A DNA stretch of 33,612 bases from contig CACFXF010000019.1 of the NCBI GenBank assembly GCA_902570265.1, positions 1 to 33,612 of the forward strand. Reading direction: 5' to 3'. The notes under the pieces are model-generated. The model ran no database searches and was not told the origin of the DNA. It saw nothing but the letters and a program-made list of their open reading frames with translations. Made by a program: the position numbers and the translations under genes. Shown here piece after piece: positions 2,591-9,042 of the stretch; position 1 is the first letter of the stretch, and each line of letters begins with the position of its first letter. Source of the DNA: an uncultured Alphaproteobacteria bacterium (GTDB lineage: Bacteria > Pseudomonadota > Alphaproteobacteria > Rhodobacterales > Rhodobacteraceae).

Positions 2591-3087
2591 TATTCTGTTA
2601 ATTTTTCGGTCTCCAAAGCACAAGTTATATCCTTTAATTGAGAGAAAGAAGCAGAAAAAACACAATGAGGATGTCCTGCTGCAGACCAAATTTTGTCAAA
2701 TCTCCTAAGTGAAGTATCAATTATCAATTTTATACTTTTGGATAATCCAATAGGAGAAACTCCCCCAATGGAATATCCAGTAATTTTTTTTACTTCTTCA
2801 GCATTAGGTCTTCTTACAGTTCCACTAACACCTAAAACTTTAGATATTAATTCTATTCTACATTTCTTATCACCTGCTATTAAGGTAACGACTGGGATTT
2901 CTTTGTTATCATTATTAATAATAAACAATAGAGACTTAACAATTGCACCCACAGGAACTTGTAGAGCATTTGCAGCATCTTGCGCTGTTCTTGCAGTTTC
3001 AGATAATTCAATCACCATTTCAGTATGACAGATATTCTTAAGAAAATCAGAAACTTTTCTTACTGTTTTCTTTTCTAAATTACTCAT
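2590..3087 (-). CDS. ybaK: YbaK/ProX-type aminoacyl-tRNA deacylase
   Basis: This 165-residue protein is a single-domain YbaK/EbsC-family trans-editing enzyme, which hydrolyses misacylated tRNA (Cys- or Ala-tRNA(Pro) in known members). Family hallmarks seen: the lysine in VGAIVKSLLF, ALIxG-like VVTLIAGDKKCRIEL, the glycine-rich GYSIGGVSPIG loop and the C-terminal AGHPHCVF strand. Length is normal. The ATG at 3087 has only a weak Shine-Dalgarno. It converges on the DsrE-family gene with 49 nt between stops. Whether it edits Cys or Ala cannot be told from the sequence. Confidence 0.88.
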   Translation of the reverse strand: MSNLEKKTVRKVSDFLKNICHTEMVIELSETARTAQDAANALQVPVGAIVKSLLFIINNDNKEIPVVTLIAGDKKCRIELISKVLGVSGTVRRPNAEEVKKITGYSIGGVSPIGLSKSIKLIIDTSLRRFDKIWSAAGHPHCVFSASFSQLKDITCALETEKLTE

Positions 3088-3305: not shown

Positions 3306-3590
3306 TTAGTTTGGTATCCCCTCAACAACTCTCCAGTAAGGGAAATTAACATCATCTTTATTCTGTTCTATCGCCATTCTCAGAAATATCCCAGTTGTTA
3401 CTGGACATGTCTTATCTGCTCCTGCCTTTAGTGCTAGACCTCTCCTTAGTTCTTTGATGGTAAAAAAAGAACCCTTCGGTATTGCATAAATAAAATCTGC
3501 AATTTTCTCTGGAGAAGAGATAAGCATTTTGTCTCCAGCAGAAATATCGGAAAACTCTTTGTCTAGAACTTTTATGATATTTCTACTCAA
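3306..3590 (-). CDS. MGMT-like DNA-binding-domain protein lacking the alkyl-acceptor motif
   Basis: This 94-residue protein starts with TTG; AGGAGA (3597-3602) lies 6 nt upstream, which decides the start. From about residue 20 (SSPEKIADFIYAIPKG, then FTIKELRRGLALKAGADKTCPVTTGIFLRMA) it resembles the winged-helix domain of O6-alkylguanine-DNA alkyltransferases. The PCHR active site is absent; YWRVVEG stands near its position. Related stand-alone MGMT-family proteins that I recall continue some 15-20 residues past this point. This one stops at WRVVEGIPN, so it may be slightly truncated. A role in binding damaged DNA (ATL-like) is possible but inferred. Its neighbours give no context. Confidence 0.6.
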   Translation of the reverse strand: MSRNIIKVLDKEFSDISAGDKMLISSPEKIADFIYAIPKGSFFTIKELRRGLALKAGADKTCPVTTGIFLRMAIEQNKDDVNFPYWRVVEGIPN

Positions 3591-4145
3591 TAACTATCTC
3601 CTGAAACCCACGATGATTTTTTTCAATCTATCAGATTAACAAAATATTATTTTTTGAACATTAAAAATTATTTTTGACTCAATATTAATCAAAATTCCCA
3701 ACTTACGTAAGGTAGTTTTTTCTAAGAAATTCCGATCTTCTTATTAGTGTATATAACAGAGTAATCGTTAAGTAGTTTTGACGAAAAAATAAAAATTCTT
3801 TCTCCAATATAATAGTCGAGATAATTCCTCCCTTTCATTATCTCGACATTCTTTTAAGGCCGATTTCCTTCCAAAGTAATCGGACTTATTTTTTTTGTCT
3901 TAAAACAAAGATATTTGAGATAAAATCATATTATCAAAATTTATATTCAACCAACAAGTATTATTTTTTTCATCTTACCGATAAACATTTCTCTACCTTG
4001 ATTGCATTTATAGATTAGAAAACCTTTGTTAGTTTTAGTGAAGGGGCATTATTACAAATATGTCCTATGTGATTCATATTTTGTTTCTATTAAATGTGAG
4101 TTGTCGGGCAGACATAGGATTATTAAAAAAAGTTAAAGAATAAAA
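3591..4145. other. Gene-free gap with a candidate sRNA
   Basis: About 555 bases without a convincing reading frame. The main content is the double-hairpin RNA candidate at 3815-3896. An 8-bp inverted repeat (TCCTATGT 4063-4070, ACATAGGA 4112-4119) lies upstream of the DUF2905 gene; its meaning is unclear. Confidence 0.6.
3815..3896 (+). ncRNA. Candidate sRNA with anti-Shine-Dalgarno loop and intrinsic terminator
   Basis: Hairpin 1 is a perfect 11-bp stem (GTCGAGATAAT 3815-3825 with ATTATCTCGAC 3837-3847) with loop TCCTCCCTTTC. Hairpin 2 pairs 3855-3865 with 3878-3888 (10 of 11 pairs, one G-A mismatch), has TTCC in its loop, and is followed by eight T (3889-3896), a strong plus-strand terminator. 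CCUCCC loops that can pair with Shine-Dalgarno sequences are a hallmark of several alphaproteobacterial sRNAs. A TATAAT at 3808-3813 and a TTGACG at 3778-3783 exist but are too far apart (24 nt), so the promoter is unresolved and the RNA may begin further upstream. Confidence 0.6.
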
Positions 4146-4343
4146 ATGCAAAAAATATTAATCATTATTGGTATAGTTATTTTAATTATAGGATTATTTT
4201 ATCCTCTTTTGAAAAAACTTGGACTAGGAAAATTACCAGGGGATATAATTTTGAAAGGAGAAAATTCTTCTTTTTATTTTCCAATTATTACTTGTATTGT
4301 CATAAGCATAATTTTGTCACTTATCATAAATTTTCTACGATAA
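4146..4343 (+). CDS. DUF2905-family small membrane protein
   Basis: This 65-residue protein has two transmembrane helices: 2-22 (ILIIIGIVILIIGLFYPLL) and 42-64 (YFPIITCIVISIILSLIINFL). Between them lies the family's typical GLGKLPGDIILKGENSSFYFPI segment, where the glycine-rich LPGDI motif is diagnostic. Function is unknown across the family. There is no strong ribosome binding site, but the start is fixed by the length and N-terminal helix of the family. It stands alone between two sRNA-bearing gaps. Confidence 0.85.
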   Translation: MQKILIIIGIVILIIGLFYPLLKKLGLGKLPGDIILKGENSSFYFPIITCIVISIILSLIINFLR

Positions 4344-5899: not shown

Positions 5900-7207
5900 T
5901 CAATTGTTAAGTGAACCTTTGATTAATCGCTGACGCAATTTCCCTGATAGCCAATCAGTAGCTGTGACGAGTAATATTATCAATATAATGTAATAAGTAA
6001 CTTCTTCCCAGTTACTTTGAGTAATAATTGCCTGAGTAAGCATCAAGCCTATACCCCCGCCTACCATCGCACCGATGACAGTTGCACCACGAATATTTGA
6101 TTCGAAGTAATATAAAATTTGACTTAGCAAAACTGGGGTAATTTGGGGAATAACTCCGAAACGATAGCGTTGAATATTTCGTGCTCCAGTTGATTGTACT
6201 CCGTCTATCTGTTTTTTATCTACATTTTCTATTGCCTCTGAAAATAGCTTTCCAAATGTTCCTGTGTCAGTAACTACCATAGCTAAGGCTCCTGTTAGTG
6301 GTCCCGGCCCGAAAGCTCGTGCTAAGATTATCGTCCATAGCAAATGATCTAAGCCTCTGGTAAAATCAAAAATACGACGGAAGAAAAACCTGACGGGTGC
6401 TAAGGGCGTAATGTTTTTTGCTGCCAAGAACGCAAGAGGGAATGCTACCAAGGCAGCTCCAAATGTTCCCAAAAAAGCCATTAGGATAGTTTCACCTATC
6501 GCCCAAGCAACATCGCTGTGTCTCCACATCTTATTATACCAAAAGTCTCTCATTATCTTTGGTAGCTCGCCATTAAATGCTAGTGAGGTTAATTCAGATA
6601 TACTTTTCCCATGATATTGGCTGTCCAGTGTAAAGAAGAATAATTCCCAGCCATAAAAATATCTGAATACTTCTGTACGATTTCGGGTAATTGTGAGGCG
6701 ACCTGCTTCTGTTGTAATAGTAACTCGGTTTTTTGACTGATTTATCCATTCTGGCAACGGCCCATTGGGGTATTCCGCCTCTACACCACCTAAACCGGGT
6801 TCAGCCCAAATTCTACCGTAATTAGGTACCTCATATACAACATCTTTTTCACCAAAATAGATCAAATGCCCGTTGCCGAGATTTATTTTACTTGTGCTAC
6901 CTAATTCTATCCATTCCGGTGCTTCTCCCGATGGATATCTACCTTTTTTTTCACCTTCAATTGAGATAGAAATATCGCCTTTTCGGTTATCACGAGTGAC
7001 ATGCACTTTATGGCTATACATGTCCCCAACTAAGCTTTTTGCGTTTTTTAGGGACCCTCGCTCACTCAGGCCTAAGATATCGAAGGAAATAAAAACATAC
7101 GTGAAGTATGCTAAAATAGCTATTGGAATACCAAATGCCCAAGCACGTTTAAAATAAAAAAGCTTGTTAACATTCGATTTGAGGGTCTCTATATTATTTG
7201 TACTCAT
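5900..7207 (-). CDS. phnE: Phosphonate ABC transporter permease PhnE2
   Basis: This 435-residue inner-membrane permease has one N-terminal transmembrane helix (about 22-48). A soluble extracytoplasmic stretch of about 180 residues follows, then the permease core from about 235. The EAA-loop is visible as GTFGKLFSEAIENVDKKQIDGVQSTGA, typical of the PhnE/PtxC family. The long form with the inserted domain is usual for the second PhnE of alphaproteobacteria. ATG overlaps the phnE1 stop as ATGA (7204-7207), so the two are translationally coupled and probably form a heterodimer. The final gene of the phn unit. Confidence 0.93.
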   Translation of the reverse strand: MSTNNIETLKSNVNKLFYFKRAWAFGIPIAILAYFTYVFISFDILGLSERGSLKNAKSLVGDMYSHKVHVTRDNRKGDISISIEGEKKGRYPSGEAPEWIELGSTSKINLGNGHLIYFGEKDVVYEVPNYGRIWAEPGLGGVEAEYPNGPLPEWINQSKNRVTITTEAGRLTITRNRTEVFRYFYGWELFFFTLDSQYHGKSISELTSLAFNGELPKIMRDFWYNKMWRHSDVAWAIGETILMAFLGTFGAALVAFPLAFLAAKNITPLAPVRFFFRRIFDFTRGLDHLLWTIILARAFGPGPLTGALAMVVTDTGTFGKLFSEAIENVDKKQIDGVQSTGARNIQRYRFGVIPQITPVLLSQILYYFESNIRGATVIGAMVGGGIGLMLTQAIITQSNWEEVTYYIILIILLVTATDWLSGKLRQRLIKGSLNN

Positions 7208-8073
7208 AGCAAGCCCTCAGATTTTTTCCCGTGTGTCAAACGATCTCGAAATATACCAGACAGCTGATCAACAATAACAATGGTTACAAATAAAAGTATG
7301 AAAATAGCTCCAGCTTCGTCATACCGACCTTTACCCCACGAGATAGCATTTTTTAAATCATACCCAATTCCACCGGCACCAACAAAACCTAGAATAGCAG
7401 ATATACGAATGTTGATTTCAAACCGTAATAGGGCATAACTAAAATAGTTTGGAGATACTTGAGGGAGGATGCCGAGTAGCATTTTTTGCATCCAACTAGC
7501 ACCCACTGAGGATAATCCATCAAGGGGTTGAAGTGATGCATTTTCGTTGACTTCTGAAAATAATTTTCCAAGCGCTCCTGACGTATGAAAGGTAATGGCA
7601 ATCATGGCGGGGACCGGGCCACCACCAAGTATAAAAATTAATATAAGTGCTATCACAAAATCAGGAATGGCTCTCATTATATCTAAGATACGTCTAAAAA
7701 CAGGAATGAGCCGAGGCCACTTAGCCATGCCCTGTGTGGCGAGCATTGACAAAAATATAGCGAATATTGATGCTGCCAAAGTTGCCGCAGCGGCGATGTT
7801 AATCGTCTCTATTAGGGATGGAAAGAACTTTACAAAAAGGCCAGGAATTTTTTCTATTTTTTCACTAGCTTCTAAAATCACTTCTCTGGGAAAGTCGAAG
7901 ATACTTGTAATACCCGCCCAAAAGCTGCCTGCATTTCTATCGTCTACAACATTAAAGCCGGATATCATAAGAACGATAAAAACGCCAAGTAGAATAGCGC
8001 TATATGTGCGGCGTTTTTTTATAAGCTCGAAATATTCTGCTTCGTATTTTTGAGTTGAGGTTATTTCAGACAT
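7204..8073 (-). CDS. phnE: Phosphonate ABC transporter permease PhnE1
   Basis: This 289-residue permease has about six transmembrane helices. The EAA-type cytoplasmic loop reads SGALGKLFSEVNENASLQPLDGLSSVGAS, and a GFVGAGGIGYDL motif follows, both typical of PhnE. It has the ordinary short PhnE length. Start at 8073 has AGGA 6 nt upstream. A 12-bp hairpin lies in the 60-nt spacer from phnD. With PhnE2 it should form the channel fed by PhnD and driven by PhnC. The substrate (2-aminoethylphosphonate, methylphosphonate, phosphite) cannot be told from the permease. Confidence 0.93.
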   Translation of the reverse strand: MSEITSTQKYEAEYFELIKKRRTYSAILLGVFIVLMISGFNVVDDRNAGSFWAGITSIFDFPREVILEASEKIEKIPGLFVKFFPSLIETINIAAAATLAASIFAIFLSMLATQGMAKWPRLIPVFRRILDIMRAIPDFVIALILIFILGGGPVPAMIAITFHTSGALGKLFSEVNENASLQPLDGLSSVGASWMQKMLLGILPQVSPNYFSYALLRFEINIRISAILGFVGAGGIGYDLKNAISWGKGRYDEAGAIFILLFVTIVIVDQLSGIFRDRLTHGKKSEGLL

Positions 8074-8133: not shown

Positions 8134-9042
8134 TTACTTAGATTTTAACTTACGTGCTTCCACGATGATTTCGTATGCCTCATGACCTATAGGCATAACT
8201 CCTAATCTTTCACCGGCAAATACCCCGTAAGCGCATTCAGGATCCATTGAATGTAAACTCGCTGTTAGAGCTGTAATCTTAACCTTTACGTCTGCTGGAA
8301 GATCTTTTCTTAAAACAACTGGCCCCTCTGGAATTGGCTTTGACTTCCAAATCTGGACCATATCATTCATATCTACCAGACCAGCATCTACCGCTTTCCT
8401 TAATGCACCAGCATTGTAACCGTCTTCCCAATCACCAAGCCCATCAGCCCAGGTAACACCTCCGTCTACATCGCCATTATTTACTGCAACAATTGTCTGC
8501 TCATGGCCACCGGTAAACTTAACTTCACCAAAATAGTCACCAGAGTCCATGGTTGCACCGGTGGCTTGTGGTATTTCAATAGATGGTATTAAGTACCCCG
8601 ATGTAGAATTTGGATCACCAAAACCAAAAACTTTTCCCTTCATATCATCAAGTGACTTTATCCCGCTATCCTTTCTTGCAAAACCAACTGAGTAATAACC
8701 ATAGCCACCGTCCATATTTACTGCAACTACGATTGGTTCTACTGCTTCTGGATCTGAAATATAGGTTTTAGCATAACCTGATGCACCCAGCCAAGCCATA
8801 TCAATAGTACCTCCTAAAAGACCTTGAATCACCCCATCGTAATCAGCTGGTGCAAATATTTTTGATGGAACGCCCAGCAAATCTTCAGCTTTTTGACGAA
8901 AACATTCATTATTTGTCATACGGTCTTGTGCGTTTTCACCTCCAAGGATCCCAATACGAAACTCAGATATTGAATGACCGCCTGAAAATGCAGCGGTTGA
9001 TAACACTGTAGAAGCAATAATTGCTGATAGTAATTTTTTCAT
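8134..9042 (-). CDS. phnD: Phosphonate-binding periplasmic protein PhnD
   Basis: This 302-residue type-2 periplasmic binding protein has a signal peptide (1-20, KK then LLSAIIASTVLSTAAF). The family features are visible: EFRIGILGGENAQDRM, ADYDGVIQGLLGGTIDMAWLGASGYA around 65-90, and GFGDPNSTSGYLIPS followed by GGHEQTIVAVNNGDVDGG, which line the phosphonate pocket. AGGAGA lies 6 nt before the ATG. It is second in phnC-phnD-phnE1-phnE2. PhnD homologues bind 2-AEP, other phosphonates or phosphite; the ligand is not decided here. Confidence 0.93.
   Translation of the reverse strand: MKKLLSAIIASTVLSTAAFSGGHSISEFRIGILGGENAQDRMTNNECFRQKAEDLLGVPSKIFAPADYDGVIQGLLGGTIDMAWLGASGYAKTYISDPEAVEPIVVAVNMDGGYGYYSVGFARKDSGIKSLDDMKGKVFGFGDPNSTSGYLIPSIEIPQATGATMDSGDYFGEVKFTGGHEQTIVAVNNGDVDGGVTWADGLGDWEDGYNAGALRKAVDAGLVDMNDMVQIWKSKPIPEGPVVLRKDLPADVKVKITALTASLHSMDPECAYGVFAGERLGVMPIGHEAYEIIVEARKLKSK

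Follow-up and report, generated by a model that had tools for sequence, protein, structure and literature searches.

The window analysed here, a stretch of 33,612 nt with a GC content of 31.3%, carries a conserved non-coding unit between a 94-codon minus-strand frame, which starts at 3590, runs away from the unit and gives no match in Pfam, and a DUF2905 gene whose start lies at 4146. The nearest leftward open reading frame on the plus strand with a Pfam family ends at 2540; a 111-codon plus-strand frame at 2693-3028 was taken as spurious, being antisense to a Pfam-identified gene. With this layout of flanking genes, no identified plus-strand gene therefore reads into the terminator of the unit. 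The features of the locus are as follows.

3634..3897, plus strand: whole conserved unit, found in copies with differing gene neighbours; its left edge is approximate and its right edge is mostly the T-tract
3669..3725, plus strand: upstream block, conserved and carrying the palindrome CTTACGTAAG; invariant at 39 of 57 columns across 9 copies
3748..3756, plus strand: possible extended -10 element TGTATATAA; TGTAT (3748-3752) invariant in 9/9 copies
3796..3805, plus strand: possible third, unpaired anti-Shine-Dalgarno (anti-SD) element TTCTTTCTCC, 5' of hairpin 1
3815..3847, plus strand: hairpin 1, 11 bp, with loop UCCUCCCUUUC at 3826-3836, from fold and conservation
3856..3887, plus strand: hairpin 2, the putative terminator stem, with loop UCCUUCCAAAGU at 3866-3877
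3889..3896, plus strand: run of eight T by direct reading, the predicted transcript end; T-rich in the 8 two-hairpin copies

An earlier note on this DNA had described a perfect 11-bp hairpin followed by a second hairpin ending in eight U, and direct reading and folding confirmed both. Hairpin 1 reads GTCGAGATAAT-TCCTCCCTTTC-ATTATCTCGAC, with 11 Watson-Crick pairs, and the loop of hairpin 2 reads TCCTTCCAAAGT in the window copy. The 84-nt stretch folds with a minimum free energy of -22.6 kcal/mol against a shuffle mean of -9.6 (sd 2.55; z -5.1), a value equalled by none of 200 shuffles. Perfect stems of at least 11 bp with loops of 3-14 nt occur three times in the 33.6-kb window compared to a mean of 0.47 in 60 dinucleotide shuffles of it, and no hairpin of at least 10 bp from these shuffles carried CCTCC in its loop. 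The complementary strand of the 84-nt stretch folds equally well (z -5.0) and the model of this locus (locus 1) also scores weakly on the opposite strand; the predicted direction of the unit is given only by the T-run, which is weakest in copy G011:C16 (TTTGTTTA). Hairpin 1 has no T-run of its own. The anti-SD core UCCYUCC is also present in loop 2, where UCCCUCC replaces UCCUUCC in 4 of the 8 two-hairpin copies. At position 3859 the window copy has G and the other seven two-hairpin copies have T, so that stem 2 of the window is weaker than the perfect 10-bp stem of which it is a variant. A terminator scan found nothing at the unit, its loop limit being 8 nt and the loops of the unit being 11-12 nt long. 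No tRNA or tmRNA was detected in the window, and Rfam gave no gathering-level match there and none at E ≤ 1 in five related loci. At 3600-4000, 12 Rfam matches were listed at E ≤ 10, all far below gathering scores and none from an alphaproteobacterial sRNA family.

The distribution of the unit was followed in 12 genomes of the genus including the source genome (G000; 2.16 Mb, 87 contigs, 81% complete), 11 of the 12 being less than 90% complete. Five genomes carry the unit, at ten places. Hairpin 1 is complete at nine of them (G000:C19, G001:C2, G002:C1, G002:C5, G008:C21, G008:C28, G011:C16, G011:C44 and G011:C53), and a tenth copy, in G008:C28, is truncated where that contig ends. A sixth genome, G009, holds a decayed copy (model E 6.7e-6), and the other six (60-97% complete) gave only chance-level matches, so that an intact copy is absent from the matches in 7/12 genomes. 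A family-wide model search with stricter filters, covering 248 genomes from 247 genera of which only two genomes belong to this genus, returned only the source genome. We also scanned a collection of 84,980 genomes, one per species, with a strict 18-base pattern that sees only near-identical loops and inner stems; the source genome itself may lie outside this collection. Eight of the 25 stretches found belong to the family of the unit, all in AG-404-G18, AG-359-I23, AG-911-F16 and AG-910-B21, which are titled uncultured Alphaproteobacteria and which, by their names, we take to be single-cell genomes from the ocean. The other 17 stretches, with best stems of 2-7 bp, were taken as chance, and among 31 pattern stretches from viral contigs none had a stem of at least 7.

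Shorter motifs were less discriminating. Among 29 of the 30 places of CCTCCCTT in the source genome that were evaluated (L252 was left out), the longest stems were 14, at the second locus described below, and 11, at the window unit; place L237 reaches 11 when G-U pairs are allowed and lies near a start-like ATG, and the other places reach at most 7. TTCCTCCCTT occurs at 57 places in the genus, 30 of which were examined, and CCTCCTCCC is present in 58 of the 61 genomes counted, with a reversed control at comparable rates. A loop match in G005:C26 was rejected since it lies inside a coding region, as judged by eye from a comparison with a frame in G011 that is presumably dnaE.

The copies G000:C19, G001:C2, G002:C1 and G011:C53 occupy the same genomic place, and the remaining copies lie elsewhere. 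In pairwise blastn comparisons, the non-syntenic copies have about 260 bp in common with the window copy, from about -190 to +72 around the loop (-182 to 72 for both G008:C21 and G008:C28, -191 to 71 for G011:C16). Similarity stops at the T-tract in these three comparisons; G011:C44 loses it at that point and regains it after another 152 nt. The exception is G002:C5, where similarity extends to +316. G008 and G011:C44 have about 25 nt more in common with each other. Within the unit, the linker, spacer and arms vary while loop 1 stays identical in 9/9 copies with a complete hairpin 1: all 11 loop columns are invariant, compared to 7 of 11 in each arm and 20 of 84 in the spacer after the upstream block. 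Loop 2 has 10 of 12 invariant columns among the eight copies carrying hairpin 2; G002:C5 has no hairpin 2 and no clear terminator.

The arms of stem 1 change in step, GTCGAGATAAT/ATTATCTCGAC being replaced by GTCGGAATAAT/ATTATTCCGAC and CCGATT/AATCGG by CCTATT/AATAGG. Alignments A1-A3 leave out both the decayed copy of G009 and the second, truncated copy of G008:C28; A2 additionally omits G002:C5, which is without hairpin 2, and A3 omits G001:C2, whose hairpin 1 is that of G011:C53. Across the seven distinct two-hairpin rows, 98.0% of cells are paired, as high as in none of 500 shuffles, and three pairs are changed on both sides, a number reached by 3/500 shuffles, as is the covariation score. 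For hairpin 1 alone with G002:C5 included, the cells paired (2/500) and the covariation score (11/500) stand out, while the two double-changed pairs are equalled by 231/500 shuffles and the four further pair types by 449/500. The individual copies also fold stably, with z values of -4.9 to -9.8 in 8 of 9 copies (G001:C2 left out). Both fold stability and the slid controls thus give good support for stem pairing. The covariation appears suggestive rather than strong, because there are few distinct sequences and few independent events. The earlier note had named in advance, as support for an sRNA-like unit, an invariant loop on stems that vary yet remain paired in relatives, and the aligned copies show this picture: CCTCCC is unchanged in the nine with a complete hairpin 1, and a few compensatory changes are found in the stems.

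Upstream of the hairpins, the conserved block at 3669-3725 is probably a control region. If TGTATATAA acts as a -10 element, it would possibly place the start of transcription near 3762; a promoter scan found no plus-strand site at the unit. TATAAT at 3808-3813 was disfavoured as a promoter because a start some 7 nt further on would land inside stem 1, and the motif reads AATAAC in G002:C5. The possible third element 5' of hairpin 1 has a counterpart elsewhere, as TTCTTCTCC is found ahead of the second-locus hairpin as well; the element is diverged in G011:C16.

Directly 3' of the unit, a second conserved non-coding block (3898-4141) is common to G002:C5 (68% identity over a joint 504-nt stretch) and contains TTGTCGNNCAGACATAGGA in both. 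In G011:C44 this block is split in two and no DUF2905 gene was seen adjoining it. The insertion behind the unit in G011:C44 carries an extra hairpin, GTGTGGATACTT-TTACTCCATT-AAGTATCCACAC, with ACUCC in its loop (L060, about 7855-7905, minus strand). The wider surroundings of the copies (L057, L058, L060 and L061) contain small hypothetical genes, nearby resolvase/recombinase, NYN and Sel1 domains and a gene with repeats of 69-bp period; L061 has a MeaB gene, and L060 and L061 share a gene that we take to be glmS-like. A repeat of about 245 nt (79% identity) flanks the unit on different sides in two copies, upstream in G002:C5 and downstream in G011:C16 (L059, about 6560-6805, and L058, about 8275-8515, both minus strand) and carries the long inverted repeat GGTGTGAGATTAG ... 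CTAATCTCACACC. For the neighbouring PhnE, the nearest among plasmid-borne copies are from Tritonibacter and Ruegeria (~65% identity).

The locus-1 model also matched a second locus in three genomes (G000, G002 and G008; E 0.0008-0.002), at G000:C20:28442-28497 (L206), in G008:C5 (L212) and at G002:C5:11337 (L213). These sites are orthologous and lie just ahead of one gene, presumably encoding a CoA-transferase; in G002 the gene behind the locus is amdase-like by Pfam, on the same strand and just under 200 nt away. The stem is unrelated to that of locus 1 and reads TGTCCAAATA/TATTTGGACA or TGTTCAAATA/TATTTGAACA, variants that differ by a compensatory C-G to U-A change. Its loop contains CCTCCCTTT and thus the same CCUCCCUU loop as locus 1, a T-run is present, and the 5' element GAAGAT(A/T)ATTCTTCTCCTA (RNA: GAAGAUWAUUCUUCUCCUA) is found in 3/3 genomes. 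The folds have z values of -5.4, -4.3 (1/200 shuffles equal) and -5.4. The matches listed for the locus-1 upstream block include none of L206, L212 and L213. At the second-locus site of G006 and G007, which are more distant, no such hairpin was seen by eye in 440 nt, and the contig of G001 begins behind that site. No other single observation argues as strongly for the importance of the loop as its recurrence on unrelated stems.

Taken together, these data suggest that the window holds a real, conserved and probably transcribed sRNA unit of a restricted clade, for which an anti-SD mechanism is plausible. We consider it the best explanation, with a probability of roughly 0.7, that the unit is a gene for a trans-acting anti-SD sRNA of about 85-135 nt that represses translation. 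Much the same hairpins could serve only to end read-through transcripts, as a transcription terminator or processing element whose CU-rich loop is incidental, and hairpin 2 with its T8 does look like an intrinsic terminator; the second locus in G002 could likewise terminate the nearby amdase-like gene. However, locus 1 has no identified plus-strand gene upstream, its hairpin 1 comes without a T-run, the conserved unit extends about 190 bp upstream, and in the nine copies loop 1 is more conserved than the arms that hold it and recurs on an unrelated stem, which makes a pure terminator unlikely.

Conservation through recent copying would be expected if the unit were mobile or repeated DNA of hypervariable islands, either MITE- or cassette-like or a protein-binding inverted repeat. 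With up to three copies per genome, three copies at contig ends and several near resolvase/recombinase-like and small hypothetical genes, the setting would suit such an element, but the copies are unevenly diverged and combine compensatory changes with an invariant loop, the common part mostly stops at the terminator, and the upstream block is missing from the second-locus matches; we regard this explanation, too, as improbable. Hardly any weight falls on a minus-strand gene for a small protein that would start with ATGAAAGGGAGG in the loop: the frame reaches 81 codons in G002:C1 and 56 in G011:C16, but only 25-44 codons in 7/9 copies, with indel frameshifts and in-frame stops, and given this decay (25-81 codons across copies) we largely rejected it.

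Under the preferred reading as an anti-SD sRNA, transcription on the plus strand would begin at a promoter in or below the conserved block 3669-3756 and end at the hairpin-2/T8 terminator as read from the sequence. Two stable hairpins would keep the pyrimidine loops UUCCUCCCUUUC and UCCYUCCAAAG open; both are complementary to Shine-Dalgarno (SD) sequences, and loop 1 resembles the 3' tail of 16S rRNA (CCUCCUUUC). The loops could then base-pair with SD segments immediately ahead of start codons, for example GGGAGG or GAAAGGGAGG, and keep the 30S subunit off, so that some mRNAs would be translated less and would probably also be less stable. As the stems would only present the loop, they may drift, and scattered gene copies may raise the dose or separate control. 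We infer this mechanism of repression from the loops and from known RNAs of the same design.

The earlier note had predicted many target mRNAs with GGAGG-type sites; the source genome makes modest use of SD sites. A 4-base SD core is in place in 30/114 sampled open reading frames of at least 150 codons compared to 4/114 further upstream, and GGAGG or AGGAG in 10/114, in a sample biased towards SD sites because CCTCCCTT or AGGGAGG had served to retrieve many of its loci. In the same biased sample, loop 1 scored -5.42 against the start regions, which is not better than the best of 50 shuffled loops (-5.43; mean -4.89). A general preference of loop 1 is thus not seen here, and the RNA may target only a minority of mRNAs, those whose SDs are strong. 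AGGGAGG-N3-10-ATG gave 11 matches in the source genome and 9 in a reversed control, so that no target enrichment is seen. Two of the 11 lead long frames that Pfam assigns to ABC transporters, at G000:C1:149415 and G000:C4:98561. These frames have 360 and 492 codons; one encodes a permease for branched-chain amino acids and one a solute-binding protein of family 5. ABC-transporter mRNAs are predicted targets of NfeR1 and reported ones of AbcR, but two cases prove nothing; a third match, L183 with a 153-codon frame, was taken as internal to a longer gene.

More tentatively, and as a scenario that we ourselves doubt, the unit may represent an sRNA family that is still young and expanding. In this picture, a self-contained stretch of 260 bp, made up of a control region, two anti-SD hairpins and a terminator, would have been copied between the hypervariable islands of a single marine subclade that gave no DUF1127 match. 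Together with the second hairpin behind a metabolic gene, which would have arisen independently although its loop is the same, this would amount to convergent cuckoo-like control rebuilt around a loop resembling the 16S tail during genome reduction.

The earlier note had linked the loop to those of known alphaproteobacterial riboregulators, described in larger genomes, and had expected such an RNA to be new in a streamlined marine lineage. The link holds for the anti-SD hairpin design but not for the motif, as the loop is UUCCUCCCUUUC and not CUCCUCCC/CCUCCUCCC, and DUF1127 was not found in the 12 genomes. Genomes of the family to which the genus belongs are mostly larger (2.3-5.6 Mb among 25 listed, from other genera); this family is probably Rhodobacteraceae and, if so, already known for such RNAs. 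Anti-SD loop RNAs have been described in R. sphaeroides and in rhizobia (PMC3927594, PMC10746234). None of the best-ranked literature matches concerned this RNA or anti-SD sRNAs in such a lineage, and the main text of a Ruegeria pomeroyi sRNA paper (PMC4809877) contains no occurrence of CCUCC, CcsR, Shine or loop.

Cuckoo RNAs, as introduced by Reinkensmeier & Giegerich (2015) and described in PMC4504443 and PMC3927594, have the loop CCUCCUCCC; the unit has the same design with the loops UUCCUCCCUUUC and UCCYUCC. Cuckoo RNAs comprise two to four hairpins on a short transcript, and the predicted RNA of the unit has two in 8/9 copies and one in G002:C5. Where cuckoo helices are paired without sequence conservation, the stems of the unit show moderate variation among the locus-1 copies and are entirely different at locus 2, and where each cuckoo hairpin carries CCUCCUCCC, loop 1 of the unit has only CCUCCC and loop 2 only CCYUCC. 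NfeR1/alpha-r14 of rhizobia, from another order of bacteria, similarly presents anti-SD loops on stems of free sequence, but with CCUCCUCCC in each of three hairpins, compared to two hairpins with other loops in the unit; it has its own promoter with a conserved upstream stretch, as is proposed for the unit, and predicted ABC-transporter targets (PMC10746234). AbcR1/AbcR2 (alpha-r15) share CU-rich anti-SD motifs in unpaired regions and ABC-transporter mRNA targets, but have three stem-loops and partial homology to SuhB (RF00519), as described in PMC7143759; SuhB was not among the Rfam matches of the window, of 3600-4000 or of the five related loci.

A similar layout is found in CcsR1-4 and RSs0680a of Rhodobacter sphaeroides, which probably belongs to the same bacterial family as the host of the unit: RS0680a (RSs0680a) has two stem-loops with an anti-SD motif in each (PMC3927594), and several homologous copies occur (PMC10253847, PMC8625941). 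Processing of a transcript shared with the DUF1127 gene ccaF1 yields the CcsR RNAs (PMC10253847). Loci of the CcsR/CIN1 type have the DUF1127 gene upstream, an RpoHI/RpoHII promoter and induction by stress. The unit, in contrast, occurs as dispersed single units, and PF06568 (DUF1127) gave no match in the 12 mostly incomplete genus genomes or among the nine window proteins scanned, while E. coli was matched among 14 control genomes. A multi-copy RNA that has a different loop and for which no DUF1127 partner was detected, in an AT-rich lineage of roughly 2 Mb, would point to broad translational riboregulation being kept or rebuilt in small-genome ocean bacteria, and the unit offers a concrete sequence to seek in ocean metatranscriptomes. 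The best reading of the unit is a clade-specific, multi-copy anti-SD sRNA that would work like the cuckoo RNAs; it shares the design of the cuckoo, alpha-r14 and CcsR RNAs but not their full motif and, if it works, would work like them without being an established member of their families.
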